Virus record (IMG/VR): IMGVR_UViG_3300032462_001516
Coordinates: 34,663 to 98,662 of that record
Strand: one strand, 5' to 3'
Length of the DNA stretch: 64,000 nucleotides
Source of the DNA: a virus
This document shows, one piece after another, positions 4,732-22,686 of the stretch. The position numbers were made by a program, and so were the translations under genes. Position 1 is the stretch's first letter. Every line of letters begins with the position of its first letter. Under the pieces are notes generated by a model. That model was not told the DNA's origin, did not search any database, and saw only the letters and a list, made by a program, of their open reading frames with translations.

Positions 4732-4817
4732 CTGTTTCGATTTCTGGATCTGGCTCTTACTCGTTGTGAGTAGAAACACCTTTTTTTGGTGGGGTTATAG
4801 AAGTCAAACCTCCAACG

Positions 4818-4841: not shown

Positions 4842-4849
4842 AAAGTAAA

Positions 4850-6022: not shown

Positions 6023-6046
6023 AACGGCTGTAAAACGGCTGTAAAG
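6018..6046. repeat. Short tandem duplication at the tuf stop codon
   Basis: The 11-bp unit CTGTAAAACGG is repeated, with a third partial copy, over and after the tuf stop codon. Confidence 0.6.
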
Positions 6047-6049
6047 CAA

Positions 6050-6087
6050 AGCGAAAGCGTGGTATAATCAAATACCACGCTTTCGCT
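6050..6087. terminator. 16-bp inverted repeat after tuf
   Basis: AGCGAAAGCGTGGTAT at 6050-6065 is perfectly complementary to 6072-6087 around a six-base loop. There is no U-tract after it on the plus strand. It may be a terminator, a processing site or an RNA stabiliser for the tRNA-tuf transcript. Confidence 0.55.
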
Positions 6088-6130
6088 GCAACGGTTAAGA
6101 AATTTCCATTGGCACGCACCAGGCATAAAC

Positions 6131-6412
6131 ATGCGTCGAGAAACAACCATCATCGGCATGATAACAATCATTTTCATGATTGTCGTTTTCTTCATTTCAA
6201 GTGCCACTAATTCCAGCGATCAAGCCAAAATACAAAAATGGGCTAGTGACAACAAATATGTCATAGTCACATCTGAACGGTGTTTTTTCTACTCCGGCCC
6301 TTATTGGACGACTAAAAACACTCGGATTTACAAAGTCGATTTGGAAAATAACAAAACCCATTGGTTCCGATTCGGACTTTGGGGAACCGACACCGACATC
6401 GAGGAATATTGA
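6131..6412 (+). CDS. Small membrane-anchored protein
   Basis: A 93-residue protein with one N-terminal membrane helix (about residues 7-24, IIGMITIIFMIVVFFI) and a polar C-terminal domain. Two basic residues at the start suggest the C-terminus faces outward. No family is recognised. Its last codon overlaps the start of the next gene (TGATG). Confidence 0.6.
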   Translation: MRRETTIIGMITIIFMIVVFFISSATNSSDQAKIQKWASDNKYVIVTSERCFFYSGPYWTTKNTRIYKVDLENNKTHWFRFGLWGTDTDIEEY

Positions 6413-6783
6413 TGCGAAGACAAAGACCCACCGCTTGTGAAATCCGAAAACAAATGAACACTGCCGATAGCACCCACCAAAGGTGTGTGTCGGATTATTC
6501 ATTTGGTAAATTCAAAATGAAACCGGGAGAAGTAATTCTTACTTGGCACGACAAAGAAAACGACAAGCACAATAGAATGGTATTGACCCACCGTTCAACT
6601 GGCGTCCAAATATTTGGATATATCAAGCCAGGATACAACCCATCCAAAAAAGAGATCAGCGAAATGCGAAAGCATTTTATCAAAAAGAATTTGTCTTTAC
6701 TTGAAAGCATGACGAGGCGACACCTTAGAGCGTGCATGGCAAGTCAGTATGGACCCATTCCAAAAGGACAGTTCGATGAGTAG
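6412..6783 (+). CDS. Hypothetical protein
   Basis: A 123-residue basic protein starting at the ATG that overlaps the preceding stop. The N-terminus is Arg-rich. The middle (W-H-D-K-E-N-D-K-H-N-R-M-V-L-T-H) looks like a beta-strand region. Not assigned. It overlaps the next gene by eight bases, consistent with an operon of three small genes. Confidence 0.55.
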   Translation: MRRQRPTACEIRKQMNTADSTHQRCVSDYSFGKFKMKPGEVILTWHDKENDKHNRMVLTHRSTGVQIFGYIKPGYNPSKKEISEMRKHFIKKNLSLLESMTRRHLRACMASQYGPIPKGQFDE

Positions 6784-7009
6784 AAATCAAATCAAACGAT
6801 GTGCCTGTGGGCTACCGCTTCATTATCGAGACAAAACCAAAGAAGCGGAAGTTCAAGGAGAGATCGACAAGCTCGGAGAATGGATACCATTCAGCATTGG
6901 TCAAAGTCGATATTTGGTGCAAAGACACTACAAAGAACTGCACGGCCTTAATCCAAATGAAGTTCCTGCTTTAATGAAGCAAGGAATTATCAGAATAAAC
7001 AAGGATTAA
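6776..7009 (+). CDS. Hypothetical protein with C-x-C motif
   Basis: A 77-residue protein that begins MSRNQIKRCACGLPLHYRD; C-A-C-G near the N-terminus may be half of a metal site. The start is the ATG overlapping the upstream stop. A 16-codon frame (7018-7068) follows and is probably not a gene. Nothing else is seen in 7069-7199. Confidence 0.5.
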   Translation: MSRNQIKRCACGLPLHYRDKTKEAEVQGEIDKLGEWIPFSIGQSRYLVQRHYKELHGLNPNEVPALMKQGIIRINKD

Positions 7010-7199
7010 AGTCGATATGAACACCTACTCCAACGAACTCATGCAAAAACTGACAAATCAGTTTTAGGCGACATTTTACAATTGGTGCCAAACATTTGGA
7101 AGTTGCTAGTTTTTCGACCTTTTCATGAATTGGCAATAGCATCAATCACAGACAATGTTGCATCATCAGATATTGTCGCTAGAGCTTTGGGCAATTTTT

Positions 7200-7511
7200 T
7201 TAGCTCCCAAGATTTTCTTTGTTGGTTGGCAATAATTCAGACGCCCAATTATACATTTCAGATAATAAATCTCCAAATTGTTTGGCTCGACTTTGATTAC
7301 AAAAATGTAAAGGATAATTGCTATGAGGAAAATGCCAATTAGAACAACCATCCCACTTAATGTGTCCAATTAACAATGGATCTTCATCAGAAACTTCTTG
7401 ATTTCCTTGGTAAATAAAAAAATTAACAATATGTCCATTTTTATGCAAGTCAGCCAACACCACATAAGGATCTTCTGATCCTTGAAAGAACTCTCTTAAT
7501 GTATTCGACAT
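7200..7511 (-). CDS. Hypothetical protein
   Basis: A 103-residue minus-strand protein that begins MSNTLREFFQGSEDPYVVLA. It has mixed alpha/beta character and several Trp and His residues. No known family is recognised. It stands alone between plus-strand operons, followed by another minus-strand gene on its upstream side. Confidence 0.5.
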   Translation of the reverse strand: MSNTLREFFQGSEDPYVVLADLHKNGHIVNFFIYQGNQEVSDEDPLLIGHIKWDGCSNWHFPHSNYPLHFCNQSRAKQFGDLLSEMYNWASELLPTNKENLGS

Positions 7512-7549
7512 TTCATTGTCTTTCTAAATTTATTTTATTGTCTAATGGC

Positions 7550-7774
7550 TCATACAACAATTCTTACGTTTCCGGGTGGCTTTCTAGGAGCCATCTCTCC
7601 CTGTCCCAAAATCATTACAGAGTGTCCAACTTGTGTTAGGTGAAACTCTAAAGTCACATCCTCAACCATCCAAAGTCCCATGCCAGTTCCATTACAGTGT
7701 GGACAAGGTCCATCAACCAAACCACTGCAATTACAATTTCCACAAGATTTCTTTACGAAAAAATCCATATCCAT
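7550..7774 (-). CDS. Small protein with DnaJ-type zinc-finger cysteines
   Basis: The start is placed at Met-Asp-Met-Asp (7774), giving 74 residues; an upstream ATG at 7810 would overlap the divergent gene. It contains C-G-N-C-N-C-S-G-L-V and C-P-H-C-N-G-T-G, the C-x2-C-x-G repeats of the DnaJ central zinc domain, without J domain or substrate-binding domains. It may act as a small RNA- or protein-binding zinc finger. Confidence 0.55.
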   Translation of the reverse strand: MDMDFFVKKSCGNCNCSGLVDGPCPHCNGTGMGLWMVEDVTLEFHLTQVGHSVMILGQGEMAPRKPPGNVRIVV

Positions 7775-7801
7775 CTCCGCCACAAGTGTAACAAAAATCA
7801 C

Positions 7802-8083
7802 ATGGCACAAAATCGCTCAGTGGAAGAAAGAATGAACATTTTGGCTCTTATCCCAATTGGTGGGATTGCCGGTATGCCGCCATATACGCCACATGCAGGA
7901 TCAGGAAAAATCGCCTGTGCTGGCTGTGGTATAGCTTGTTGGATCGGTCCTCGTCAAACCGTGATGAAGCTCGAAAAGCCTGAACTCCCGGCATTGTGCA
8001 TGTTGTGTGCGTGCAAAGAAATACAAAAACAAAAAGAATCAGACGAAGAAGTAACTGCATCCGTGATTCCATTAGGTGATTGA
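7802..8083 (+). CDS. Hypothetical Cys-rich protein
   Basis: A 93-residue protein. It has C-A-G-C-G-I-A-C in the middle and C-M-L-C-A-C in the second half, spaced as possible metal ligands. The N-terminal stretch is hydrophobic and Gly/Pro-rich. Not assigned. The stop (TGA) is two bases before the methyltransferase start. Confidence 0.5.
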   Translation: MAQNRSVEERMNILALIPIGGIAGMPPYTPHAGSGKIACAGCGIACWIGPRQTVMKLEKPELPALCMLCACKEIQKQKESDEEVTASVIPLGD

Positions 8084-8085
8084 AT

Positions 8086-8736
8086 ATGCAAAGAGATTAT
8101 AGTTGGAAGCCATCCTGGAGTCCTATTCACAAAGAATGTGACGTTCACCCTCATGTCCCTGCGGAACGTGCTGATTTATTTGAGGTCGCCGATGGCGGCT
8201 CTACTGAATATGAAGTCTTAAATTGGCTTCATTCCACAATCCGAGTATTGAAGCCACAACTGGTTCTTGAAACTGGTGCGTGGGAGGGTTTCGGAACAAC
8301 CGCCCTAGCTCATGCTTGCAAACTCAATGGATTCGGCAAGGTGCATTCTCTTGAAGTTCTGCCGCCACAATGCGTGCGACTTCAGACGGTTCTTGAAGAA
8401 GAACACTTGCTTAAATGGGTTGAAGTGCATTGCGTAGATTCGCTTGAATTCTTGCAACAATCTAATATTATCTTCGATATTGGATTCTTTGATAGCCTGA
8501 CCGAGATCAGGCCCATCGAATGCGAGATAATGCTCAACAAAGGCACGTTGAGAAACCTTGCTGTCTTCCACGACACATCGCCTCATCGGTCTGAATCCGC
8601 TCCTGATTGGACCAGCACAGAAACTCAAAACACATACAGAGAAAAGGTCTTGGCCTTAGCCAAACATCCCCGATGTACTGGCTACTATGATTCCCCACTA
8701 TCCAGAGGATTCATGGCCTTGTTCTTAAAAGGCTAA
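8086..8736 (+). CDS. Class I SAM-dependent methyltransferase-like protein
   Basis: A 216-residue protein with a Rossmann-type methyltransferase core: the SAM-binding [12 protein letters not shown] loop at about residues 60-72, an acidic residue after strand two (LEVLPP), and V-x-C-V-D-S-L-E-F followed by F-D-I-G-F-F-D. This fits the Methyltransf_24 type, often found in glycan and O-antigen clusters. A glycosyltransferase lies 340 bases downstream. The start at 8086 is preferred to a TTG two codons upstream. The substrate is unknown. Confidence 0.65.
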
Positions 8737-8737
8737 C

Positions 8738-9075
8738 ATGAAAAACGTAGTTGTAATGTTCCCATATCCATCGGGTGCCGGTTTACACTTGGGGCATTAC
8801 TATAATTATGCCATTATCGACAGCTATTGTCGATTTCTGCGATATGAGGGCGAAGAAGTCTTTCAGCCTTTTGGATATGACGCATTCGGACTGCCTGCCG
8901 AGATCAAGGCTTGAAGAATTCAGTACGAAATTATTTGTTCTTTTGGAAAGTGAACAAGGTGGTCAGCACATTCATGACCTTCTATAACGACAACAAAGAC
9001 AAAAAAGTCTCGCCCGCCAACGCCAAAGAGATTGTCCAGTTGCTTCAAAATTTTGCACCTGGATTTAATCTTTGA
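8738..9075 (+). pseudogene. leuS: Decayed leucyl-tRNA synthetase (N- and C-terminal remnants)
   Basis: 8738-8914 encodes 58 residues with the LeuRS catalytic N-terminus, including [18 protein letters not shown] (the HIGH signature as H-L-G-H) and [10 protein letters not shown], then stops. After about 35 bases, in another frame (8950-9075), comes a segment ending V-Q-L-L-Q-N-F-A-P-G-F-N-L, which matches the anticodon-binding end of LeuRS (the F-A-P-H-x-x-E region). Roughly 700 residues in between are gone. It is a deletion remnant next to many tRNA-Leu genes. Confidence 0.8.
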
Positions 9076-9791
9076 AAATATCGTTCTGCACAACTTGTAT
9101 GGGCAGGGTTCATCATCTAATGAGAACCCTGCCCATAAATATTCATGTCGCTCCAGATTGCGAATTTGTGTTGCTTAACTATGGCAGCAAAGATGGAATG
9201 CACGAGTGGGTCCGAGACAATATGCGTCCTTGGATAAATCGAGGAACCATCAAGTATTATAGAACTCAGCTTCCTGAATACTTCGTGGCGACACATGCCA
9301 AAAACATTGCACATCGCCAAGCGACCGGCGATATTCTTTGCAATTTAGACGCAGACAATTTCTTGATTGACGGCTTTGTTGAATTGGTTAAAAAGACCAT
9401 GAGCGACAAACAAAGCATTATGACTGCTCCTATATTTGATATGTTCAATATGTCGGGCAGTTGCGGAAAGATAGCAGTTCATCGAGAGCATTTCTATAGC
9501 GTAAATGGATACAACGAAGACATCAATTTGGGATGGGGGTGGGATGATATTGATTTTGAATTACGTGCAGCCATGCACAACAAATTGAAATACGCTCAAA
9601 CTCCCGTGAAGTTTTGCCGAGTAATAGACCACGACGAATCAGATCGAGTCAAGAACTTTCGCACCAAAAACTTGAAGGATTCCCAACGGACAAATGGGGA
9701 ACTGTTGGAAACGGTGAAAAATACTAGAAATTACGTTGTCAACAAAAACAGAGAGTGGGGAGTTGCATTAGATTTATCCAGTGATATATAA
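9072..9791 (+). CDS. Family 2-type glycosyltransferase
   Basis: A 239-residue GT-A fold glycosyltransferase. The N-terminus is a beta-strand with F-C-T-T-C-M-G-R. A metal-binding D-A-D follows T-G-D-I-L-C-N-L near residue 93. The acceptor-side motif G-W-G-W-D-D-I-D-F appears about residue 160, as in galactosyltransferase C-terminal domains. The TTG start overlaps the stop of the leuS remnant (TTGA). It ends inside the TATATAA element that precedes the next gene. Confidence 0.75.
   Translation: MKISFCTTCMGRVHHLMRTLPINIHVAPDCEFVLLNYGSKDGMHEWVRDNMRPWINRGTIKYYRTQLPEYFVATHAKNIAHRQATGDILCNLDADNFLIDGFVELVKKTMSDKQSIMTAPIFDMFNMSGSCGKIAVHREHFYSVNGYNEDINLGWGWDDIDFELRAAMHNKLKYAQTPVKFCRVIDHDESDRVKNFRTKNLKDSQRTNGELLETVKNTRNYVVNKNREWGVALDLSSDI
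9785..9791 (+). promoter_or_regulatory. TATATAA cassette motif
   Basis: TATATAA ends three bases before the ATG at 9795. Its last three bases are the stop codon of the glycosyltransferase. Confidence 0.5.
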
Positions 9792-9794
9792 GAC

Positions 9795-10019
9795 ATGATT
9801 AAATTCAAAGACTGGATGCAGACAAGAGAAGCCAAACTCCGAGAAATGGGGAGTGGTCCATATATTGGAAACTGCACTGACACCAGTGATTATCAAGTAA
9901 TTGGTGCTTGTAGCGATCAAAATTCCGAAGAAAAGAACAAGGCGTATCGAAAAGGTGGCGTAGACCACAAAAAAGTCCACAAGCATTCCGACAAGATCAG
10001 ATCAAAAGTCGGTATATAA
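9795..10019 (+). CDS. Small protein with capsid-targeting-like N-terminus
   Basis: A 74-residue protein that begins MIKFKDWMQTREAKLREMG, giving the F-K-x-W-M pattern followed by L-R-E, which fits a T4-type capsid-targeting sequence with an L-x-E cleavage site. The remainder is hydrophilic and ends in a Lys/His-rich tail (HKKVHKHSDKIRSK), as expected of a DNA-associated internal head protein. Its stop lies within the next TATATAA element. Confidence 0.6.
   Translation: MIKFKDWMQTREAKLREMGSGPYIGNCTDTSDYQVIGACSDQNSEEKNKAYRKGGVDHKKVHKHSDKIRSKVGI
10013..10019 (+). promoter_or_regulatory. TATATAA cassette motif
   Basis: TATATAA ends three bases before the ATG at 10023 and supplies the stop codon of the previous gene. 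Confidence 0.5.
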
Positions 10020-10022
10020 GGT

Positions 10023-10442
10023 ATGATGACGTTCAAGGAATTCGTGGGATCGCAAGAAGTACAGCCGCAGGTGCAACAGCCTCAAGCGGCTGGTTCTCAG
10101 CAATCATCCAAATGGAAGGCCACAAAAGATGAAATTGTGGGCTACTGGAAGAACTTACGTCCCGACACACCCGTCCAAATGCGAGCCATTGATTACACCC
10201 ATAAGGGATCAACATATGGCGAAGACGGAATGCGACTAACAGGCAGTCCGCAGTTTATTGCATCAATTTTAGCCAGAATGAAAGAGTTGTTGACTTACGA
10301 AACTCCAACAACCAAACTCGCCGTTACATATCGACAAACAGAGTCCCCCAGCAAGATGGCAATGGGACAAAGTAAAACTTCCTACGTCTTTTACGTTGCT
10401 GCTCGTCAACGTGGCGGCAAAACTCAAATCGCACCCAACTAG
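10023..10442 (+). CDS. Hypothetical protein with capsid-targeting-like N-terminus
   Basis: A 139-residue protein that begins MMTFKEFVGSQEVQPQVQQ: the F-K-E-F-V variant of the cassette N-terminus, then a Gln-rich linker and an alpha/beta domain with no recognised family. The second Met (10026) may be the real start. It is the second of two adjacent cassette genes. Confidence 0.55.
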   Translation: MMTFKEFVGSQEVQPQVQQPQAAGSQQSSKWKATKDEIVGYWKNLRPDTPVQMRAIDYTHKGSTYGEDGMRLTGSPQFIASILARMKELLTYETPTTKLAVTYRQTESPSKMAMGQSKTSYVFYVAARQRGGKTQIAPN

Positions 10443-10519
10443 ACTTGATTTTATCTTTCGTGATTGTATACTCATAACTTGTGTTGAGAACCAACCAAGG
10501 CCCCAAAGGAGAGTTTACA

Positions 10520-10972
10520 GTGAGTATGAAAATTGCGTGGACGATTGCCGGAATTGTCGGAATTTCCGCTCTGTGTGTGGGATCAATGACGTGGCACGCC
10601 TGGAGTGTCCAGAAGGAAAACCAACGACTCTCGCTGGTGAATTACATCTATGTTGCGGAGCATCGTATTCTCAAGGATGAAATCTCTGAACTTGCATCTA
10701 AGCCAACATACGATCAGGGATATAAAGACGCTCTGATCCGCATCGGCGGACCACAAGTCCCTGGTGCATACCAAGATGGCTGGGACGACGCTCAGAAGCT
10801 CTGTGGTGCGGAAAACAATTACGCAGACGGGTATCACGCTGCAATCCAACAGTTTGGATATACTAAGACTACAACAATGGCTCGTTGGTTGGTTCCCGAA
10901 CCAAAAGACAAGGCTATTGCTGCGGATAAGTCCAACAAGGAAGGCATCACGCCTGCTAAATTGGAAAAGTAA
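10520..10972 (+). CDS. Membrane-anchored hypothetical protein
   Basis: A 150-residue protein. The GTG start is preferred because AAAGGAG sits eight bases upstream; an ATG two codons later would be too far. One membrane helix (about residues 5-25, IAWTIAGIVGISALCVGSM) is followed by a soluble domain with repeated D-G/Y-x-x-G-Y-x-D-A and D-G-W-D-D-A elements and a charged, Lys-rich C-terminus. No family is recognised. Confidence 0.6.
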   Translation: MSMKIAWTIAGIVGISALCVGSMTWHAWSVQKENQRLSLVNYIYVAEHRILKDEISELASKPTYDQGYKDALIRIGGPQVPGAYQDGWDDAQKLCGAENNYADGYHAAIQQFGYTKTTTMARWLVPEPKDKAIAADKSNKEGITPAKLEK

Positions 10973-10988
10973 TCCAAACCGCTATAGA
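10961..10988 (+). promoter_or_regulatory. Possible sigma70 promoter for the GTPase-centre RNA
   Basis: TTGGAA (10961-10966) and TATAGA (10983-10988) are 16 bases apart, placing a start near 10995, upstream of the hairpin series that ends in a terminator at 11239. Confidence 0.35.
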
Positions 10989-10994
10989 AAGCAT

Positions 10995-11239
10995 TGGCTA
11001 CAGTAAATCGGGTGATTTAGGGAAAGGTACGTCCTTTCCTTTGGGGAAACAAAGACAGCCAGGATGTTGGCCTAGAAGTAGCCAACATTCAAAGAGTAGG
11101 GTTACACAGGGACTTCCTGTTAACGGACCCTTTTGGTGTAATAACACACTGGCCGAGCCACCCAACACTCGACACTGGCAATGCTGGTGCCTGGAGAGCA
11201 TGTCGCCGACGAAGGCTTAGGCGACATGCTCATTTTTTG
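10995..11239 (+). ncRNA. Non-coding RNA containing a 23S rRNA GTPase-associated-centre mimic
   Basis: Bases 11058-11095 and 11138-11153 align with E. coli 23S rRNA 1051-1088 and 1093-1108 (helices 42-44). By hand, 47 of 54 positions are identical, including GCCAGGATGTTGGC, TAGAAG (with A1067), AAAGA and GTAATA (with A1095/A1096), then CACTGG. E. coli 1089-1092 is replaced by 42 bases that can fold as an extra hairpin. Differences in helix 43 improve pairing (ATGTTGGC/GCCAACAT). Around the core are hairpins TAAATC/GATTTA (11004-11019), GGAAAGG/CCTTTCC, CTTTG/CAAAG and CACTGGC/GCTGGTG, and the unit ends in a strong terminator. No protein frame fits. It carries the site that binds L11 and contacts EF-Tu and EF-G. 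A decoy or mimic role is inference. Confidence 0.85.
11196..11239 (+). terminator. Intrinsic terminator of the GTPase-centre RNA
   Basis: GAGCATGTCGCC (11196-11207) pairs perfectly with GGCGACATGCTC (11220-11231), followed by A and six Ts. Confidence 0.93.
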
Positions 11240-11253
11240 AAAAGAAAGATGAA

Positions 11254-11436
11254 ATGATAGCTTGTATTTGCGGTGGATTTTTGGAACTAGGTTACATCCT
11301 AGTGATGGCAATTATTTCTATTTCGGGAGCAATATTTGGCACCAACTGGTACAATACAGCACGATATAAAAAGTACATAAAATACAAAGACAAACACAAA
11401 GGCTGTGGTTGCGACTGTCACAAAGAAGACGAGTAG
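11254..11436 (+). CDS. Small membrane protein with Cys/His tail
   Basis: A 60-residue protein. There is one membrane helix (about residues 8-30) after a short C-I-C-G-G start, then a Lys/Tyr-rich stretch and a tail C-G-C-D-C-H-K-E-D-E that could bind metal. No family is recognised. Its stop lies just before a tRNA-Leu gene. Confidence 0.5.
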   Translation: MIACICGGFLELGYILVMAIISISGAIFGTNWYNTARYKKYIKYKDKHKGCGCDCHKEDE

Positions 11437-11439
11437 TGC

Positions 11440-11521
11440 GGCCCTGTGGTGGAATTGGAATACACATGGGACTTAAAATCCCACGCCGAAAGGATTGCGG
11501 GTTCGAGTCCCGCCAGGGCTA
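11440..11521 (+). tRNA. tRNA-Leu(TAA), long variable arm
   Basis: The acceptor stem is GGCCCTG/CAGGGCT (first pair G.U) with discriminator A. The anticodon arm TGGGA-CTTAAAA-TCCCA gives TAA. The class II variable arm is CGCCGAAAGGATT and the T-arm GCGGG-TTCGAGT-CCCGC. Confidence 0.93.
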
Positions 11522-11554
11522 CGTTTTACAAGATGCCTAAAACGTGGTAAAACT

Positions 11555-11635
11555 GGCCGAGTGGTGGAATGGCATACACGATGGTTTTAGGAACCATTGC
11601 CGCAAGGCTTGCAGGTTCAAGTCCTGTCTCGGTCA
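11555..11635 (+). tRNA. tRNA-Leu(TAG), long variable arm
   Basis: The acceptor stem is GGCCGAG/CTCGGTC with discriminator A. The anticodon arm ATGGT-TTTAGGA-ACCAT gives TAG. The variable arm is class II (TGCCGCAAGGCTT) and the T-arm is GCAGG-TTCAAGT-CCTGT. It is followed by a 7-bp tandem repeat (ATGAGGA) before the next gene. Confidence 0.92.
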
Positions 11636-11663
11636 CTAATGAGGAATGAGGAATGAGGATACG

Positions 11664-12158: not shown

Positions 12159-12258
12159 AAATTAAGCCTATTGATTCAACAAAAAAGAAGAAAAGCCTTT
12201 GGGCGTCGAAGTCATCTACTTGAAAAGAGAATCAGACGGCAACTGGAAAACCTTATGA
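12155..12258 (+). CDS. Small protein needing a -1 frameshift at A-AAA-AAG
   Basis: From the ATG at 12155 (overlapping the upstream stop) the zero frame reads MKIKPIDSTKKKK and ends after 21 codons. A slippery heptamer A-AAA-AAG sits in the zero frame at about 12180-12186. Slipping back one base gives MKIKPIDSTKK-EEKPLGVEVIYLKRESDGNWKTL, whose stop overlaps the deacetylase ATG (ATGA). That double overlap suggests a true gene. The alternatives are a decayed gene or a sequencing error in the A-run. Confidence 0.4.
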
Positions 12259-13139
12259 AAGTTTTTTACAACGAAAATCAGTCAGTGGAAAATAATCCAA
12301 GCATTTCGCCAAGTGCCAAGAAGCCCACGGCAGTATTGAAGTCGTGGCAGGAAATTGTGCCTGTCGAGATCATGCCAGTTGTTCCTGTAACCGTTGCAGA
12401 CTTGGAGTTGGTGCATGACAGAGAATACGTTAATGATGTTATCTCTTGTCGCATAGAAAATGGGTTCGGCAACAAACTGAAAACCATTGCTGATTCTTTG
12501 CTGTGGACAAATGGTAGTTTTCTTAGTGCTGCTAAATACGCAGTTGAAAACAAAACAAATACAGTTAGCCCAACAAGTGGTTTTCACCATGCAGGATATT
12601 ATGCTGGTAGTGGATTTTGTACATTTAATGGACTTATGTTGGCGGCAATAACGCTCAAAAATGCCATGCTGGTCAATCGAGTTGCCATTGCTGATTTAGA
12701 TATGCACTATGGCAATGGCACGGATTGCATCCTTGAGCAGTTATCCATTCGAGGAATGAAAGATTTCATCTCTCATTATACTTTTGGCGGGCATTTAGAC
12801 ACTGTTGATCGTGGAGCTAAAAGTCGGCTTGCTTTTGGCCAAGCATACACAAAACTTTTGCCCGACATTATCACTAGGTTGCTTGATGATGCAGATGTTC
12901 TGTTCTATCAGGCTGGGGCTGACCCTCATGTGAATGATCCATATGGCGGCGTTCTCACGACTGAAGAGTTAAAAGAAAGAGATCGCATTGTTTTTACAAT
13001 TGCGAAAGAAAGAGGAGTGCCGGTTGTTTGGAATTTAGCAGGCGGGTATCAAACCGACTTTTCTAAAGTCTTGGAAATCCACAACAACACAGCTTTGTTG
13101 CACGTTGAGATATTCGAGAATGCACCGGAAACCTTGTGA
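12255..13139 (+). CDS. Histone-deacetylase superfamily amidohydrolase (acetylpolyamine/acetoin type)
   Basis: A 294-residue member of the zinc-dependent deacetylase superfamily, which removes acetyl groups from lysines, polyamines or related amines. The start MKVFYNENQ is family-typical. Motifs are F-H-H-A-G-Y-Y near residue 113, the zinc ligands in D-L-D-M-H-Y-G-N-G-T near residue 150, Q-A-G-A-D-P-H near residue 228, and a C-terminal L-A-G-G-Y. It is coupled to both neighbours by overlapping start/stop codons. Nearby glutathionylspermidine-ligase-like and DUF350 genes hint at polyamine chemistry. Confidence 0.85.
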   Translation: MKVFYNENQSVENNPSISPSAKKPTAVLKSWQEIVPVEIMPVVPVTVADLELVHDREYVNDVISCRIENGFGNKLKTIADSLLWTNGSFLSAAKYAVENKTNTVSPTSGFHHAGYYAGSGFCTFNGLMLAAITLKNAMLVNRVAIADLDMHYGNGTDCILEQLSIRGMKDFISHYTFGGHLDTVDRGAKSRLAFGQAYTKLLPDIITRLLDDADVLFYQAGADPHVNDPYGGVLTTEELKERDRIVFTIAKERGVPVVWNLAGGYQTDFSKVLEIHNNTALLHVEIFENAPETL

Positions 13140-14852: not shown

Positions 14853-15074
14853 ATGGCAGTTGAAACAGATATTACAAAGCGTTGGGAACAAGGGATAGAT
14901 CACCATCCCAAAAGCATCGCTTTGTTCAAAAAACTAGCAGAAATCGACTTCAAATTCGGTGGAGATTTCTTCGACTGGTCATCAGGTGGCGATGGAGACA
15001 ATGGCGAACATTTAATGTACGAAATGGACATTATGTTCGAGAAAGAAGATGCTGAAATAGGAGCTTCATCATGA
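14853..15074 (+). CDS. Small acidic protein
   Basis: A 73-residue acidic protein (MAVETDITKRWEQG...). Near the end is a D/G/S-rich stretch (DWSSGGDGDNGE). Unknown family. The stop overlaps the start of the GspS-like gene by four bases, so both are likely made together. Confidence 0.55.
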   Translation: MAVETDITKRWEQGIDHHPKSIALFKKLAEIDFKFGGDFFDWSSGGDGDNGEHLMYEMDIMFEKEDAEIGASS

Positions 15075-16216
15075 AGCGACACACAACCGATCTTAGGCAT
15101 GATTGGAAAAAGACCATTGAAGGTCAGGGAATGTTATTTCATACATTTGATGGCGATATTTATTGGGACGAGTCAGCATACTACGAGTTAAACAGTCCTG
15201 AAGTAGACACCATAGAGGCGGCTACTTACGAACTGAATGATCGTTGTCTTGAAGCTGTTCAACACGTCATCGACAATGATCTGTTAGATGCTTTCTTGAT
15301 CCCGCCCGAATTCCATCAGTTTATCCAAGACAGTTGGGAGAGAGACGAACACACCATTTATGGTCGGTTTGACTTTTCCTATGACGGAAAAACCCAACCA
15401 AAGATGTTGGAGTTCAATGCCGACACGCCTACCGGCCTGATAGAAGCTGCTGTTACCCAATGGTATTGGGCAAAAGACAAGTTTCCAAATCGGAACCAAT
15501 TCAACTCAATACACGAGCGGCTAATTAAGGTTTGGAAAGAACTGAAGTCCGTGACGCCAGGAGTATTGTATTTTACGGCACTCGCTGGCAATCTCGAAGA
15601 TTACATGAACGTCAATTATCTTCGAGACACTGCCATCCAAGCCGGGTGGGATACTGAATATATTGACATTGAAAACATCGGATGGAACGAAGGTCGCCGT
15701 ACATTCACCGACCTGAACGAAAATCCAATACAGACATGCTTCAAGCTGTATCCTTGGGAATGGATGCAGACCGACGAGTTTGGCAGAAAACTATTCCTCA
15801 AGACCACCAAATGGCTTGAGGCTCCGTGGAAGGCAATCCTTAGCAACAAGGCCATTCTGCCTATATTGTGGGAGTTGTTTCCCGATCATCCAAACTTATT
15901 AGAAGCATCGTTTCAACCAATTCGCACAAAACCTTACGTTCAGAAGCCAATTCTGAGTCGTGAGGGAGCTAATGTGCAAATATTTGAGCATGGCGAATTG
16001 CTGCTTAAAACTGATGGTCCTTACGATGGACCATGTGTATATCAACAACTATGGGAACTTCCCAACTTTGATGGCAATCACGCCTGCATTGGTAGTTGGT
16101 TGGTCAACGGCTGGGCTTGTGGAATAGGCATTCGAGAAGACAAAACCATTGTAACGGGGAACCTGAGTCGGTTCGTACCGCACATTTTCGGTGTTCGACC
16201 AAAATACGGGAGTTAA
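15071..16216 (+). CDS. Glutathionylspermidine synthase family ATP-grasp ligase (YgiC/YjfC-like)
   Basis: A 381-residue protein matching the preATP-grasp and ATP-grasp domains of the GspS family. Visible blocks are G-R-F-D-F-S-Y-D-G-K near residue 98, K-M-L-E-F-N-A-D-T-P-T-G near residue 110, a W-K-A-I-L-S-N-K-A-I-L-P block near residue 255, and K-P-I-L-S-R-E-G-A-N near residue 290. The E. coli homologues YgiC and YjfC lack the amidase half of GspS, as here. The family ligates an amine or peptide carboxylate at ATP cost; the phage substrate is unknown. It closes the DUF350-lipoprotein-ligase set. Confidence 0.85.
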   Translation: MKRHTTDLRHDWKKTIEGQGMLFHTFDGDIYWDESAYYELNSPEVDTIEAATYELNDRCLEAVQHVIDNDLLDAFLIPPEFHQFIQDSWERDEHTIYGRFDFSYDGKTQPKMLEFNADTPTGLIEAAVTQWYWAKDKFPNRNQFNSIHERLIKVWKELKSVTPGVLYFTALAGNLEDYMNVNYLRDTAIQAGWDTEYIDIENIGWNEGRRTFTDLNENPIQTCFKLYPWEWMQTDEFGRKLFLKTTKWLEAPWKAILSNKAILPILWELFPDHPNLLEASFQPIRTKPYVQKPILSREGANVQIFEHGELLLKTDGPYDGPCVYQQLWELPNFDGNHACIGSWLVNGWACGIGIREDKTIVTGNLSRFVPHIFGVRPKYGS

Positions 16217-16220
16217 GATC

Positions 16221-17474
16221 ATGGCTGCAAACAAAAAGATTCACATCATCGGTGGTGGAACGGTCGCACAAATTGGCCCGCACTTGGCTTTGTGCGCCCC
16301 AGCTTATGGTGGCACTGCAAAGAGACTACATCACTTGTGCTGGCAGCAGTGCCACACTCTGGACTCTGAACTCCATCTCACCAAGATGGCTGGCGGAAAT
16401 GAACTGGAAACCAATGCTGATATTGCAAAATTGGTGAACGAAATCGTTGCCGATCCAGCATCAAAGATCGTGTTTTTGAATGCTGCTCTGGTTGATTTTC
16501 AATACGATGGTGTTGCCGACAAATACGGCGAGCGAATTAAATCTCGTGAAACTCCACACCTTCAGTTGAACTTTGTTCCAGCGGATAAAGTCGTTGGCAA
16601 TATCCGCAAGAATCGTAAGGATATTTTTGCCGTCGCATTCAAAACGACTTCAGGAGCAACGCCAGAAGAACAATACATCGCTGGCTTAAATCTCCTGAAA
16701 GAGTCCAGCCTGAATTTGGTTTTTGCCAACGATGTGAAAACTCGATTGAACATGGTCATTACGCCTGAAGAGGCTCGTTATCACGAAACCACAGATCGTG
16801 ATGAAGCCCTGGAAGGCTTGGTCGAAATGACTTTGCTTCGATCTCATTTGACCTTCACTAGATCAACCGTCGTAGACGGTCAACCTGTGCCTTGGGACTC
16901 GGAATTGGTGCCTGAAGCACTCCGCACGGTTGTCGATCACTGCATCAGTGCTGGTGCCTACAAGCCATTCCGAGGGGCGACTGTGGGGCATTTTGCTTGT
17001 AAGGTAAACGACACAACTTTCCTTACAAGTATTCGCAAGTCGAACTTCAACGATCTACCCAATACTGGTCTGGTTCGTATTGTGACTGATGGGCCAGACA
17101 GCGTGATCGCTTATGGTGCCAAACCGAGTGTCGGTGGGCAAAGTCAACGTATTGTGTTCCACGATCATCAGGAATACGACTGCATTGTTCACTTCCATTG
17201 CCCGATTAAACCGGGATCAGAAGTACCAGAAGTCTCACAGCGGGAATACGAGTGTGGGTCGCATCAATGTGGAGAGAACACCAGCAAAGGACTGAAGCAG
17301 TTCGGAAACTTGAGCGCCGTTTATCTTCAAGAGCATGGACCCAATATTGTTTTCAATCGCTCGATCAATCCGCAAGAAGTGATCGACTTCATTGATGCCA
17401 ACTTCGATCTGAGCGATAAGACTGGCGGTTATGTGAGCTTGGGGCAAATCCTCACGACTCCTCACGACTCCTGA
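16221..17474 (+). CDS. CoaB-like (DFP) domain fused to class II aldolase/adducin domain
   Basis: A 417-residue two-domain protein. The N-terminal half resembles phosphopantothenoylcysteine synthetase: H-I-I-G-G-G-T near residue 7, K-S-R-E-T-P-H-L-Q-L near residue 100, A-V-A-F-K-T-T near residue 140 and V-F-A-N-D-V near residue 170. The C-terminal half looks like a class II aldolase/adducin fold, with F-L-T-S-I-R-K-S-N near residue 270 and a metal-site V-H-F-H-C-P near residue 323. The start is behind GGGAG. The fusion is unusual; catalytic competence of both halves is unproven. A 10-bp repeat (CCTCACGACT) overlaps the C-terminus. Confidence 0.7.
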   Translation: MAANKKIHIIGGGTVAQIGPHLALCAPAYGGTAKRLHHLCWQQCHTLDSELHLTKMAGGNELETNADIAKLVNEIVADPASKIVFLNAALVDFQYDGVADKYGERIKSRETPHLQLNFVPADKVVGNIRKNRKDIFAVAFKTTSGATPEEQYIAGLNLLKESSLNLVFANDVKTRLNMVITPEEARYHETTDRDEALEGLVEMTLLRSHLTFTRSTVVDGQPVPWDSELVPEALRTVVDHCISAGAYKPFRGATVGHFACKVNDTTFLTSIRKSNFNDLPNTGLVRIVTDGPDSVIAYGAKPSVGGQSQRIVFHDHQEYDCIVHFHCPIKPGSEVPEVSQREYECGSHQCGENTSKGLKQFGNLSAVYLQEHGPNIVFNRSINPQEVIDFIDANFDLSDKTGGYVSLGQILTTPHDS

Positions 17475-18429: not shown

Positions 18430-18972
18430 ATGAGCGAAAAAAAGTCAACAAGGGATGATTTTCGTAATGCCGTATTCAAACGGGATGGCTATGCCTGCGC
18501 TATGTGCGGGCATAAACCAGAAAACGTCAATGAATTAGACGCCCACCACATTACAGATAGAACCTACATGCCATTCGGTGGATATTGTGCCGCCAATGGC
18601 ATTTCGCTTTGTACAGATCGCTGCAAGAAGGAATCTTGGCTGGGTTCTTCGCTCGATTGTCACCAGAAGGCAGAACACCTTCACGCTACCGGAATTGAAT
18701 TTCCGGGATATGCTCCAGTGAACCTTTATGCTAGAATCAAGTCTTCCTATAAACAGGCTTATTCGCACAGTCTCAAGCTAGAGATCACAGCCAATAGAGC
18801 CGACGCAATGATGGCCGTCATTGACGTAATCTCCAAAAAAGAATTGGAGGTATGTCTTCGCTTGTGTGAAAACACCAGCCCGGAGACATGGGAGTTAACT
18901 TGTGACGAACTAAGTGAGTGGGAACCCCTCAATAGAACTTACGGAAAAGGTCGCTATGTCCCTGACAAATGA
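18430..18972 (+). CDS. HNH endonuclease
   Basis: A 180-residue protein. The HNH fold is visible: F-K-R-D-G-Y-A-C-A-M-C-G (zinc Cys pair, residues 16-27), D-A-H-H-I-T-D-R (catalytic His, about residue 38), and N-G-I-S-L-C followed by D-C-H-Q-K-A-E. It may be a homing-type nuclease or a DNA-processing enzyme. The 3' end overlaps the helicase gene by 17 bases, so it is integrated in the operon rather than inserted in a gene. Confidence 0.85.
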   Translation: MSEKKSTRDDFRNAVFKRDGYACAMCGHKPENVNELDAHHITDRTYMPFGGYCAANGISLCTDRCKKESWLGSSLDCHQKAEHLHATGIEFPGYAPVNLYARIKSSYKQAYSHSLKLEITANRADAMMAVIDVISKKELEVCLRLCENTSPETWELTCDELSEWEPLNRTYGKGRYVPDK

Positions 18973-20047
18973 ACAGAAAGATGTCCTGAAGCTCTTAGTG
19001 GGCAATATGGACAACCACCAGCAGCAAACTCTTGGTGGATATGCGGGGACAGGAAAATCAACAATTATTCGAGTGATGCTCGACGCCCTTCAACGAAAAG
19101 GGCGATATTTTTGCGCAGCCGCATTTACCGGCAAAGCCACGAACGTATTGCGCAAAAAGGGAATGAATGCCAATACGATTCACAGCACGATATACCAGCC
19201 GTACAAAGACGAGCATGGCGAAACCGTGTGGTTCTTAGCTGACAAAACTGACTTAGTGTCCAAGGGCATTGACGGCTTCATTATTGATGAAGCGTCTATG
19301 GTGAGCAAGGAAATACACGACGATCTTATGTCGTTTGGCCTGCCAATTATCTATGTTGGCGATCACGGTCAACTTGAGCCTATTGGCACCAAATTCAACC
19401 TTATGCAAAAGCCAATGTATAAGCTGGAGACGGTTCATCGAAATGCTGGTGAGATTGCATATTTTGCCGAGCATCTTCGCAAGGGCAATTCTGCCAATTC
19501 CTTCATGGGAGCAACGAAGGTTCAGATTGTTCAAGAAAAAGCAATTGAGGATCGACACCTTGCTGCCGTCGATCAAATCATCTGCGCCTTCAATAAGACT
19601 CGTGTGCAACTCAACGAGCGTGTGCGTATCGAGAAAAAGATTCAATATACATTCATTGCCAAAGGCGAGAAGGTCATTTGTTTAAGGAACAATAAGAAGC
19701 AGGGTTTGTTTAATGGGATGCAAGGCGTTGTCCAGAAAATCCACAAGAACGACCGCTTTGACTTTATATCGGATGGCAACTTCTTCGAGAAGGTCCATTA
19801 CGATCCTGACCAGTTTGGAAAAGACTCAAATAAGTTTGAGTTTTCCCAGGCAGCAAATCCATTCGATTACGCATACGCCATCACTTGCCATAAGGCTCAA
19901 GGCGACGAATGGGGCAATGTGATCGTATACGAACAGCGATGCGATAAATGGGATAACGTGCGATGGTCTTATACAGCAGCCAGTCGTGCAAAAAACGGAC
20001 TGATCTGGATCGCTGTAGAAGAGTTCCGACCCAACTATCTAGGGTAA
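18956..20047 (+). CDS. SF1B helicase, Dda/RecD2-like
   Basis: A 363-residue superfamily 1B helicase that would move 5'-3' on DNA. Motif I is G-G-Y-A-G-T-G-K-S near residue 28. Motif Ia contains F-T-G-K-A, motif II reads F-I-I-D-E-A-S-M near residue 108, and motif III G-D-H-G-Q-L-E-P. The C-terminal motif C-H-K-A-Q-G-D-E-W and Y-T-A-A-S-R-A complete the set. T4 Dda is the obvious phage parallel, acting in replication start and fork remodelling. The start at 18956 is chosen from the family's N-terminus (L-T-N-E-Q-K). Confidence 0.88.
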   Translation: MSLTNEQKDVLKLLVGNMDNHQQQTLGGYAGTGKSTIIRVMLDALQRKGRYFCAAAFTGKATNVLRKKGMNANTIHSTIYQPYKDEHGETVWFLADKTDLVSKGIDGFIIDEASMVSKEIHDDLMSFGLPIIYVGDHGQLEPIGTKFNLMQKPMYKLETVHRNAGEIAYFAEHLRKGNSANSFMGATKVQIVQEKAIEDRHLAAVDQIICAFNKTRVQLNERVRIEKKIQYTFIAKGEKVICLRNNKKQGLFNGMQGVVQKIHKNDRFDFISDGNFFEKVHYDPDQFGKDSNKFEFSQAANPFDYAYAITCHKAQGDEWGNVIVYEQRCDKWDNVRWSYTAASRAKNGLIWIAVEEFRPNYLG

Positions 20048-20262
20048 TGTTAAAAGAACCAATCAGTAAATGTGCATCGCATTGGGCTGTGGGCGTACTC
20101 GACACCAATCGTGCCGAATATTTCAAAGCCAAGAATTTGGAGATTAGTTTACAGATCGCCGAAATCGTGGTATCATCTATCGCAAAAATCAAGCTCCACG
20201 AGTATGATATAAGGGGATGCAACTTGTCGAGTCGTCGCTGTAATCCCCTCAAGGGGTTGTAG
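20047..20262 (+). CDS. Small hypothetical protein overlapping the RNase P RNA gene
   Basis: A 71-codon frame whose ATG overlaps the helicase stop (TAATG). The first 55 codons read like protein (alanine/isoleucine-rich helix AEIVVSSIAKIKL). The last 17 or so lie inside the RNase P RNA gene. It may be a genuine coupled gene whose 3' end was overprinted, or a chance frame. Confidence 0.35.
   Translation: MLKEPISKCASHWAVGVLDTNRAEYFKAKNLEISLQIAEIVVSSIAKIKLHEYDIRGCNLSSRRCNPLKGL
20203..20208 (+). promoter_or_regulatory. -10 element for the RNase P RNA gene
   Basis: TATGAT lies five bases before the first base of helix P1, placing the start at about 20214. No good -35 is visible at 17 bases. Confidence 0.4.
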
Positions 20263-20493
20263 AGGAAGTTCTGGACACTACTGCTTTTAAGGTAGGAGCG
20301 AAAACCTCGAAAGGGGCTAATAGTGTTTGAACTACCGAGGGTGCAAGCCATACAGACCAAAATCTCGTAAGAGGTACGCCGGTGAGCAGGGCGTCATCAT
20401 GGTCGGGTCGGTGCAGTCCGCAAGGACCGGGGGCAACTCCGAGATAAATGACGACATAGAACAGAATCCAGGCTATGGATAAGTTGCATCTCC
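20213..20493 (+). ncRNA. rnpB: RNase P RNA
   Basis: The catalytic RNA that trims tRNA 5' ends, encoded on the phage. The ends pair as a 13-bp P1: GGGGATGCAACTT (20213-20225) with AAGTTGCATCTCC (20481-20493), one G.U. The universal core is readable: GAGGAAGTTCTGGAC (20262-20276), GTGCAAGCCATACAGACC, CTCGTAAGAGG, then CGAGATAAATGAC and AGAACAGAATCCAGG near the 3' end. Helix P4 shows compensatory change: CTGGA/TCCAG here where bacteria usually have CCGGG/CCCGG. At about 281 bases it is shorter than the E. coli RNA (377), so peripheral helices are reduced. It sits between the helicase and an unknown gene. Confidence 0.93.
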
Positions 20494-20513
20494 TTTTCAA
20501 GTCAAAAAGGAGA
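20489..20513 (+). terminator. Hairpin between rnpB and the next gene
   Basis: TCTCCTTTT pairs with AAAAAGGAGA around a short loop, overlapping both the 3' strand of P1 and the AAGGAG ribosome-binding site of the gene at 20518. P1 formation and this hairpin are mutually exclusive, so RNA folding may link the two. Confidence 0.4.
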
Positions 20514-20517
20514 TGTC

Positions 20518-21309
20518 ATGCGTGCCGAAATTGTCCACGTTACGGACCACGCTTTGTTGCGATGGAAAGAACGTGCGTCGAAAACAGGTGAAGTCAACGT
20601 AGAAGAAATCGTTCAGGCTGTAAAAGAATCCAAGGTCATCAAAAAAAACGAACCTTTGCCTTACCCGATGCCTCGTTTAGATGGATCAGTTTACAGCTTC
20701 AATGCCGGAGTGTTGTTCATTCTCGAATCAGTAACCATTGATGAATATCGACTCGTCACAGTTATCGCCGACGAGCCGACCTATCAACGGATTGCTCGAC
20801 CGCCGAAGAAACAACTTAATCCTCGAAAGAGACAGAAATACGAGGAAGTTCAAAAGGTGCAAATCGACATTCCTTGCTTTGAAAGTTTCATCGAAGAACG
20901 TCAATGGTTGACCGACGAGAAACGAAAACTCGAAAGTGAACTGGCAACAACAGCGAAGAAATCTTCCACTCGCAAAGAAATATTGAAGGTGTGGGGCGAG
21001 ATTGAAGCCCGACTCACCGAGAACAAACCTCAATATCTCGAAGAGCGGAAAAAATCAGGAGACGGATATGTTGACTATGGTTCTCTTCTTTTGCAAATTA
21101 TCAGAGAGTTAAAAGAAATACGCTCTGAACAACAGGAATTACGTAACCTAATCGAAGGCTCCAATGGACAACAACCGAGATCACCGAGCAATCGGAAAAA
21201 AGCTAGACCTCTTCATGTTCAGCCCTCTATCGCCGGGTTGTCCGATCTGGCTCCCGAAGGGAGTTGTGCTTTATCAGTCTTTGCTGAACCGCATTCGTCA
21301 ACTCAATGA
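20518..21309 (+). CDS. Hypothetical protein with coiled-coil C-terminus
   Basis: A 263-residue protein behind AAGGAG. The N-terminus V-H-V-T-D-H-A-L-L-R-W-K-E-R begins a conserved-looking globular part to about residue 95. The rest is charged and helical (W-L-T-D-E-K-R-K-L-E-S-E-L; R-E-L-K-E-I-R-S-E-Q-Q-E-L), likely a coiled coil. The last 49 codons overlap the start of thrS in another frame, an unusually long overlap; either this gene's tail is a run-on or thrS starts later. The function is not recognised. Confidence 0.6.
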   Translation: MRAEIVHVTDHALLRWKERASKTGEVNVEEIVQAVKESKVIKKNEPLPYPMPRLDGSVYSFNAGVLFILESVTIDEYRLVTVIADEPTYQRIARPPKKQLNPRKRQKYEEVQKVQIDIPCFESFIEERQWLTDEKRKLESELATTAKKSSTRKEILKVWGEIEARLTENKPQYLEERKKSGDGYVDYGSLLLQIIRELKEIRSEQQELRNLIEGSNGQQPRSPSNRKKARPLHVQPSIAGLSDLAPEGSCALSVFAEPHSSTQ

Positions 21310-22387
21310 AGCCAATGGTTGCCAAGAAGTTCGGACCCCACTTATATGGAAGTCCGAACTTTATGCAACCAGCGGACACCTGGATCACTATGCAAAAAAT
21401 ATGTTCTTCGTCAGTGATAAGCCTGCTGGCGAGTCCCACGAAGAAGGACATGAAGATCAGTGCTTAAAACCAATGAATTGTCCTGGGCATATGGAGATAT
21501 TCCGCTCGAAACAGTGGAGCTATCGAGACTTGCCTGTTCGATTCGCTGAATATGGTCCTTTACACCGCAATGAAGTTTCTGGTGCCTTGGGTGGGCTAAC
21601 TCGCTGTCGTGCATTCTGCCAGGATGACGCCCACATTTTCGTTTCGCCGGACAACCTACAAAGCGAAATCAAACGAATCCTTGTCATGATCGAAAGAGTT
21701 TACGGATGGTTTGGAATGAAGTTCCGATCCGTACTCAGCACTCGTCCTTATAACTTCATGGGCGAGAAGTTGGTTTGGGATAATGCTGAGGCGAACCTCG
21801 AAGATGCTTTATGCGAAAATGGATTGAAGTTCGAGATTGCCCATAAAGACGGTGCGTTTTATGGTCCAAAAATAGACTTCATTGTGACTGATTCCCTTGG
21901 ACGTGATTGGCAAACAGCAACAATCCAATTGGACTTCCAGTTGCCTCAAAGATTCGGTTGTACCTATACCGACAAGGACGACAAAGAGCAAACTCCAATT
22001 GTCATTCACAGAGCAATATACGGCAGCTTTGAAAGATTCATTGGTGTATTGTTGGAACATACTGACGGGCATCTACCATTATGGTTGGCTCCTGTTGGTG
22101 TAACCATTGCACCAATCAGCGACAAAGTTGCTGAATACGCTGATGAGATCAAAGAGGTTTTGCTTGCTCATGGAATTCGGTGTGAATGCGATCACTCGAA
22201 TCGAACTCTGCAACAGAAGATTGCCATCGGGTACGATAAAAAAGTACCCTACATGGTCATCTTGGGAGAGAAAGAAAAATCCGCAAGAACCGTTACCCTC
22301 AAACAAATGAGATCAACTGCTGTCGCACAGGAAACCTTATCTTTGGAAGTATTCCTTCCTCAGATGGTCGCACTGGCGAAAGAGTAA
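21164..22387 (+). CDS. thrS: Threonyl-tRNA synthetase, catalytic and anticodon-binding domains only
   Basis: A 407-residue class II synthetase that attaches threonine to tRNA-Thr. It begins at the start of the catalytic core (D-H-R-A-I-G-K-K-L-D-L-F). Motif 1 is near G-V-V-L-Y-Q-S-L; motif 2 is R-F-A-E-Y-G-P-L-H-R-N-E with the zinc Cys in K-P-M-N-C-P-G-H before it; motif 3 is G-S-F-E-R-F-I-G-V-L-L-E-H. The anticodon-binding domain (W-L-A-P-V-G-V to the end) is complete. The TGS and editing domains (about 240 residues) of bacterial ThrRS are absent, so mischarged Ser-tRNA would not be cleared in cis. No tRNA-Thr gene is seen in the window. Confidence 0.93.
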   Translation: MDNNRDHRAIGKKLDLFMFSPLSPGCPIWLPKGVVLYQSLLNRIRQLNEANGCQEVRTPLIWKSELYATSGHLDHYAKNMFFVSDKPAGESHEEGHEDQCLKPMNCPGHMEIFRSKQWSYRDLPVRFAEYGPLHRNEVSGALGGLTRCRAFCQDDAHIFVSPDNLQSEIKRILVMIERVYGWFGMKFRSVLSTRPYNFMGEKLVWDNAEANLEDALCENGLKFEIAHKDGAFYGPKIDFIVTDSLGRDWQTATIQLDFQLPQRFGCTYTDKDDKEQTPIVIHRAIYGSFERFIGVLLEHTDGHLPLWLAPVGVTIAPISDKVAEYADEIKEVLLAHGIRCECDHSNRTLQQKIAIGYDKKVPYMVILGEKEKSARTVTLKQMRSTAVAQETLSLEVFLPQMVALAKE

Positions 22388-22470
22388 GCCAAGGATGAGT
22401 GATACATAATGTTGTATGAGGTACGACATTATTCAAAATTTACCCTTCCGAATATATTTGTTGGAAGTAG

Positions 22471-22686
22471 ATGGAACTACACAATATTGGATACATCGAT
22501 GACGATTTCCGAACGGACCTGCGTACATTCAGTGCCACGTCCAAAAATTCAAGCCCTGATTCAATCATCAAGGGCTTGAACGCTTTCCTGGAAAGTGAAG
22601 GATACATCAACGTCGCCGAGTTGGTTTCCGAAGAATACAAAGCTGGCGTCGTCAGCATTCGATCACGACTCATAGAAAGAGACTAA
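22471..22686 (+). CDS. Small acidic hypothetical protein
   Basis: A 71-residue, mostly helical protein (MELHNIGYIDDDFRTDLRTF...). It has no known family. It is followed two bases later by the next gene; the 22388-22470 stretch before it holds no clear gene. Confidence 0.5.
   Translation: MELHNIGYIDDDFRTDLRTFSATSKNSSPDSIIKGLNAFLESEGYINVAELVSEEYKAGVVSIRSRLIERD

Follow-up and report, generated by a model that had tools for sequence, protein, structure and literature searches.

A phage-encoded class A-type RNase P RNA with a rewired P4 helix

Few known RNAs are as highly conserved as that of RNase P, and its gene is regarded as a cellular one. The stretch of viral DNA analysed here (hereafter the window; 64,000 nucleotides, positions 34,663 to 98,662 of IMG/VR record IMGVR_UViG_3300032462_001516) contains a 281-nt gene that we interpret, with a probability of roughly three in four, as a phage-encoded RNase P RNA of the bacterial type (class A), one that works, borrows its protein from the host and matures phage tRNAs, the activity being inferred. 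It is a known ribozyme, in a new variant and in an unexpected place. We consider the RNA real, under-annotated and probably functional, with activity inferred in the absence of expression or activity data.

A cmscan search by E-value of positions 20,150–20,560 matched RF00010, the bacterial RNase P class A model, over its full length (model positions 1–367 of 367) at 20,219–20,491 on the plus strand, with 53.7 bits and an E-value of 7e-16; the remaining two matches had E-values of 3.6 and 4.4 and were not significant. Such a search had been proposed as a check in the original prediction, and while its outcome was significant and full-length, it fell below the RF00010 gathering threshold of 100 bits. 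At Rfam gathering thresholds the RNase P RNA is therefore uncalled, a scan of the whole window returning eight tRNAs only, so that standard annotation would miss the gene. The gathering score is a database threshold and no property of the molecule, however, and we still count the window RNA as a diverged member of RF00010; L030 and L032, which belong with it to a variant group described below, score 102 and 101 bits. The strand at 20,205–20,500 also folds better than all of 200 dinucleotide shuffles (z = -4.18), and there is no other RF00010 match at E ≤ 0.001 in the 98,662-base record. The RNA lies 54.9 kb into this 98.7-kb record, which carries genes for a tail sheath (phrog_23), tail fibres, ribonucleotide reductase, an SbcC-like nuclease, a family A DNA polymerase and helicases of the Dda and DnaB types, and which we assign on this gene content to a tailed phage. 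The coordinates, the length and the 13-bp P1 (one of its pairs being G·U) of the original prediction were all right, and its identification of a compact phage RNase P RNA is supported by the covariance model, by syntenic relatives and by covariation.

Table 1. Coordinates of the RNA gene, its parts and its neighbours in the window
Feature	Position	Strand	Remarks
Dda/RecD-like helicase gene	18914..20047	+	upstream of RNA
Candidate sigma-70 promoter TTTACA-17-TATCAT	20148..20176	+	TG before second hexamer
TATGATATAAGGGG	20203..20216	+	same sequence in L036 and L038; may be a second start element
RNase P RNA gene, class A-like	20213..20493	+	281 nt; RF00010 match, covariation
P1 helix, 5' strand	20213..20225	+	13 pairs with 20481-20493, one G·U
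P2 helix, 5' strand	20231..20235	+	pairs with 20451-20455; covaries across 8 distinct P2 sequences
P3 hairpin	20239..20261	+	strands 20239-20248 and 20253-20261; other length in L036 and L038
P4 helix, 5' strand AGU[U]CUGGA	20267..20275	+	bulged U included
GUGCAAG	20341..20347	+	contains A equated with E. coli A248; RF00010 alignment
CGGGU	20404..20408	+	contains GGU equated with G292-U294 of L15; RF00010 alignment
P2 helix, 3' strand	20451..20455	+	pairs with 20231-20235
P4 helix, 3' strand UCCAGGCU	20467..20474	+	
P1 helix, 3' strand	20481..20493	+	pairs with 20213-20225
Gene of unknown function, directly 3' of RNA	20518..21309	+	start kept behind RNA in L036 and L038
Threonyl-tRNA synthetase-like gene	21164..22387	+	NCBIfam TIGR00418, 463.5 bits (cut-off 383.65)

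Helices P1, P2, P3 and P4 follow one another in the standard order, and the core elements GAGGA, GUGCAAG, CGGGU, AGAUAAAUG and ACAGAA are present. We take the bulged U of P4 to be the counterpart of E. coli U69 (our own assignment), and the A in GUGCAAG and the GGU in CGGGU presumably correspond to A248 and G292–U294. On this assignment of E. coli numbers the equivalents of bulged U69, A248, G292–U294 and A351–A352 are all kept. J11/12 reads AUACAG vs the consensus AAAUAGG, and the base that we align with E. coli G332 is an A; in L036, L038 and L112, ACAAAA replaces ACAGAA. The active site and substrate contacts, as described in PMC9433436 and PMC12710915, involve A67, G68, U69, A351, A352, A248 and G292–U294: a metal is held by the phosphates of A67 and G68 and by O4 of U69, A248 stacks on the cleavage-site pair and G292–U294 of L15 pairs with the tRNA 3' end (PMC9433436), and changes at position 332 affect the choice of cleavage site (PMC12710915). 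Either the lack of a significant covariance-model score or the absence of P4 and J11/12 would have refuted the original prediction; neither was the case, J11/12 being altered but recognisable.

In P4 the change to CTGGA/TCCAG had been correctly seen, and is compensatory, but this description was incomplete, since the AGU/GCU pairs across the bulged U differ as well. The window P4 reads AGU-[U]-CUGGA / UCCAG-GCU (eight pairs, one of them U·G, and the bulged U), and beside the bulge it departs from the consensus AAG/CUU to AGU/GCU, as do all ten variant RNAs, with pairing kept. Pairs 67–359 and 68–358 are accordingly G-C and U·G in 10 of 10 variant RNAs, vs A-U and G-C, as in E. coli, in 13 of the 13 canonical RNAs counted; the bulged U is kept in all 23. 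Two other pairs, 71–356 (U-A or C-G) and 74–353 (A-U or G-C, with one C-C mismatch in L112), vary with compensation. The combination AAAGUCCGG...CCCGGCUUA is the RF00010 consensus as seen in alignments, from which the frequency of the phage pairs among cellular RNAs does not follow. Because PMC9433436 describes the metal as bound through the phosphates of 67 and 68, a compensated swap of the bases is plausible in an active enzyme. In the ten variant RNAs, which have 8 distinct P2 sequences between them, 47 of 48 P2 cells are paired; shuffles of the partners gave a mean of 34.6 and a maximum of 46, none of 10,000 reaching 47 (relatedness uncorrected); covariation across relatives, another check that had been named in advance, was thus upheld. 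The count covered P2 (variant RNAs only) and P4, with P1, P3 and the S-domain outside it.

The ten distinct variant RNAs were those of the window, L030, L032, L033, L034, L036, L037, L038, L112 and L113. L030, L032, L033, L034 and L037 were obtained by the 3' motif alone, L113 by both motifs, L036 and L038 by way of the helicase and L112 by an RF00010 search, the window being given; due to this, and apart from the window, at least one strand was unselected in all variants except L113. The canonical RNAs were obtained by the 5' motif alone, and their P4 count comprises 13 of 33 matches. Left out as copies were L031 (of L030), L099 (of L098) and L101 (of L100), as was L035, whose RNA is identical to that of the window. 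The stretches of L075–L081, L083, L089, L091, L096 and L103 were too short for the fixed cut. Also omitted were L082, a likely host flank that reads canonical in the corrected register, L085 and L086, which have ACAGGA for ACAGAA and a canonical 3' strand, CCCGGCTTA, and three RF00010 matches without a locus (in G033, G031 and G051).

The RNA begins 165 nt behind the helicase gene, and the threonyl-tRNA synthetase-like gene lies 0.7 kb downstream of it; the latter ORF as listed overlaps ORF 20518..21309, and its true start may be later. The candidate promoter alone is not above chance (4 found vs a mean of 5.1 in shuffles of 18,800–22,500); TTTACA-17-TATGAT occurs at a like place in both L036 and L038. 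Elsewhere in the window TATGATATAAGGGG / TATGATATAAGG are not enriched. At 20,483–20,530 the 3' strand of P1 can also pair with the purine-rich AAAAAGGAGAUG before the next gene (12 main-stem pairs, -15.4 kcal/mol); we do not press a switch model based on this pairing, as the stretch reads differently in L036 and L038. Further away, the window encodes a glutathionylspermidine synthase domain (15,071–16,216, 483 bits) and a DFP-domain gene (16,191–17,474), as well as genes resembling histone deacetylases (12,171–13,139), dimethylarginine hydrolases (46,311–47,123) and cobalamin adenosyltransferases (55,341–55,910).

A search with the helicase identified four loci in IMG/VR records. One is an identical copy on a 117-kb record; two have helicases with 93% and 92% identity, on records of 223 kb and 49.6 kb, respectively, the former bearing a terminase and a tail sheath; and the fourth is a weak match (48% over 33 residues) on a record without an RF00010 match. 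The helicase gene is ~1.5 kb from the start of the RNA in the 223-kb record and ~0.2 kb in the 49.6-kb record. By record, the window RNA is also found in G019, with syntenic relatives in G023 and G024. Within this clade the upstream DNA differs among relatives, while conservation extends to the RNA, to the promoter-like element and to the beginning of the gene downstream, and the three RNAs differ by gaps of 1, 2, 4, 15 and 31 nt, which argues against a coding reading. The downstream protein retrieved only a record identical to the window; G023 and G024, where only the start of the gene is seen, were not returned.

In all, the searches added nine distinct RNAs of the variant type to that of the window: seven come from IMG/VR, and the remaining two share an archaeal bin. 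When IMG/VR was scanned with the 3' core pattern, 22 records, the 117-kb one included, each yielded one stretch, and seven of them have an RF00010 match; adding the other three records from the helicase search brings this to 9 of 25. A gapped version of the pattern ({191,221}) gave seven loci, three of them new (L107, L108 and L109), in records without an RF00010 match, and a tail-sheath search gave 13 loci, with no RF00010 match in any of the 11 new records (5–86 kb). BlastN searches with the window locus and with L030 found no match among 50,697 INPHARED records. In 84,980 bacterial and archaeal genomes, a scan with the 5' and 3' patterns, which was limited to 180–210 nt between the motifs and would miss longer cellular RNAs with the same P4, made one match, on a contig of 99.9 kb in LFW-28, a bin of an uncultured archaeon; a second variant RNA (L112) lies on another contig of this bin. 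Both sit among tRNA genes. Six proteins encoded around the first were tested: two turned out to be HNH endonucleases, and for the other four PHROG gave no match. We suspect, without proof, that these contigs are misbinned phage. The variant records G013 and G014 have a portal/head-tail adaptor gene but no terminase or sheath match, which suggests that the variant RNA is probably present in more than one phage type.

RNase P RNAs with a canonical core are also found in viral records. Scanning with the canonical 5' core identified 36 IMG/VR records, 33 with an RF00010 match and 32 over the cut-off. The nine best canonical RNAs (L075–L083) scored 331–335 bits, and eight of them are no more than 0.6 kb from a contig end, on contigs of 9–25 kb; these eight were taken as host flanks, and the nine may come from prophages ending at host rnpB. 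A terminase (phrog_2) was found in 8 of the 26 carrier records tested, namely the 223-kb relative of the window and seven canonical records of 169–497 kb, two of which (G027 and G058) hold an identical locus. BlastN searches with canonical L098, L095, L100 and L093 matched 6, 6, 3 and 9 INPHARED records, respectively. Several of these matches we judged to be no phage genes: Salmonella AGRM01000002 (691 kb) is named as a bacterium, of the Acinetobacter phage MD-2021a records, the one inspected has host-like genes including coaD beside an integrase, and the match in Microcystis phage MaAM05 (L105, MW495066) is near fliM, fabI and mtgA, and also glyS, in bacterial-looking surroundings. The faecal scaffolds MT835553 and MT836823 (unverified and unannotated) have strong RF00010 matches, with no tRNA in the 6.3 kb around them; the matches in MT835480, MT835987 and MT839420 were outside this inspection. 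With stricter filters, no RF00010 match was found in 11 cultured phage genomes (ten of 245–498 kb and T4) chosen as large or tRNA-bearing.

For 27 loci of ~2–3.4 kb (9 variant loci and 18 of the 30 canonical loci fetched) ARAGORN placed a tRNA on the same strand and no more than 10 nt from the RNA in 13, and any tRNA within 1.5 kb in 17; without copies (L100 = L101) the counts are 12 and 16 of 26. Of the 13, three (L088, L093 and L102) come from records of 363, 369 and 463 kb that also bear a terminase, and in L090, L092, L095 and L097 the edge of the model touches or nearly touches an adjoining tRNA on one or both sides. No tRNA lies within 1.5 kb of the RNA in L036, L037 or L038, nor in the window, where the nearest listed is ~8.6 kb away. 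At the level of whole records, 24 of 25 carriers have at least 10 tRNA matches (10 in the window's own record; none in the 16.7-kb carrier G002), vs 4 of 16 non-carriers with any tRNA (at most 4). The carriers tested comprised 10 records of the variant group and, from the 33 canonical carriers, 15 that were mostly among the larger; since carrier records are larger, the excess is partly one of size and choice. The suggestion that the phage matures its own tRNAs gains indirect support only, from the position of the gene among tRNA genes in many related loci, the window clade excepted, and from the tRNA-rich carriers tested. In the window, eight tRNA genes by Rfam and six by ARAGORN lie at 1,645–11,636; they include a tRNA-Tyr (1,645–1,735) and a tRNA-Leu (11,440–11,522), five of the six found by ARAGORN being Leu (taa twice, tag twice, caa once), and none of the eight Rfam genes, as read, encodes a full 3' CCA. 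An EF-Tu-like gene with all three EF-Tu domains is at 4,688–6,022 on the plus strand.

Bacterial RNase P RNA acts with the protein RnpA. We found no RnpA (PF00825) at E ≤ 1 in 10 records, namely that of the window together with those of its relatives and of the variant group. A further 23, made up of the LFW-28 bin and 22 canonical carriers out of 33, gave none over the cut-off, only one weak match of 16.2 bits in G051; any of these records may be incomplete or a fragment. Where either a host or a phage protein had been envisaged, host RnpA is therefore the likely partner by inference, with a phage RnpA over the cut-off in 0 of 33 records. We envisage that the RNA would be transcribed from a host-type promoter, would bind host RnpA and might then trim the 5' leaders of phage tRNA precursors, a cleavage that has not been shown; the tRNA supply would then depend less on the host's RNase P RNA. 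In relatives with the RNA 0–6 nt from tRNAs, cleavage of the downstream tRNA could also free the ribozyme's own 3' end.

The setting and the conservation favour a working ribozyme for phage tRNAs, although cleavage is inferred. As the metal site is where the pairs have changed, the chief alternative is decoy action: the RNA would bind host RnpA or pre-tRNA without cleaving, lowering host RNase P and shifting the tRNA pool towards the phage. The altered pairs at the site formed by the A67 and G68 phosphates and O4 of U69 (PMC9433436), the changes in J11/12 and at the 332 equivalent, and the lack of an RnpA gene in the records searched are all compatible with a decoy, but we think it unlikely given that the P4 changes are compensatory, that the bulged U, GCAA, the L15 GGU and the A351–A352 equivalents are kept, that canonical-P4 RNAs sit among tRNAs in other large records and that a pure decoy would have no need of a tRNA-binding loop. 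An RNase P fold acting on something other than tRNA, e.g., a phage mRNA or small RNA, would suit the window clade, with no tRNA next to its RNA; however the L15 GGU, which would pair with a tRNA 3' end, the recognisable J11/12 and the 10 tRNA matches on the record make this very improbable.

Equally hard to credit is a functionless host gene decaying in the phage that trapped it; the low model score, the altered J11/12 and the single match in the record could be so read, but P2 and P4 covary, and relatives have retained the RNA although the DNA upstream of it is different. Fusion of host rnpB to phage contigs by assembly or binning does occur, as the Acinetobacter phage MD-2021a match adjoining an integrase and coaD and the MaAM05 match among bacterial-looking genes indicate. 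For the window we regard it as the least credible explanation, with the RNA well inside a phage record and recurring in three further records, two of them diverged and both with the same downstream gene start, and with a single occurrence of the window P4 type, that in the archaeal bin, among 84,980 genomes (in a scan limited in spacing). A working ribozyme thus remains our preferred reading. Whether large phages of several lineages keep an RNase P ribozyme of their own, often in tRNA arrays, with one group forming a separate phage lineage in which two metal-site pairs were exchanged, host RnpA completes a hybrid enzyme tuned to phage pre-tRNAs and the RNA, where it lies in an array, excises itself from the tRNA transcript, we hold to be an even bet, activity being inferred.

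If the preferred reading holds, an RNase P RNA lineage that evolves in viruses and has exchanged its metal-site helix provides natural variants of positions that the Rfam consensus shows as conserved; it makes testable the limits of change in a ribozyme core, the purpose of phage tRNA arrays and hybrids of phage RNA and host protein. The siting of related RNAs among tRNA genes in other large viral sequences suggests that phages, if the inferred activity is real, equip themselves to finish their own tRNAs, and the window RNA illustrates that Rfam gathering cut-offs can hide RNase P RNA genes in phage annotation. A limited literature search turned up no paper that we could recognise as describing a phage RNase P RNA, and the term RNase P is absent from the main texts of PMC7162821, PMC7824862 and PMC13282480. 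During T4 infection host RNase P RNA is reported to be relatively stable and possibly to serve phage tRNAs (PMC9697503), so a phage copy is not generally needed.

Among known systems, the RNase P RNAs of the Candidate Phyla Radiation resemble that of the window in having escaped notice at standard cut-offs until these were relaxed, and in their diverged structures, but they are cellular genes; for its megaphages the same work reports no RNAs beyond tRNAs and a tmRNA (PMC8172020). Huge phages were reported to carry tRNAs, aminoacyl-tRNA synthetases, EF-Tu and tmRNA, much as the window has tRNAs and threonyl-tRNA synthetase-like and EF-Tu-like genes; RNA genes in that study were called with tRNAscan-SE and ARAGORN, and its main text lacks RNase P (PMC7162821). 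The theta ribozymes of gut phages are likewise phage ribozymes tied to phage tRNAs, but they are HDV-like and concern tRNA 3' ends, RNase P being named only as the general 5' enzyme (PMC10879173). The closest likeness is to RF00010 and E. coli M1 RNA (rnpB) itself, with which the window RNA shares P1–P4 and GAGGA, GCAA, CGGGU, AGAU.AAUG and ACAGAA in order over the full model (1–367), and from which it differs in being phage-encoded, in its 281 nt and 53.7 bits, and in its swapped P4 pairs 67–359 and 68–358.
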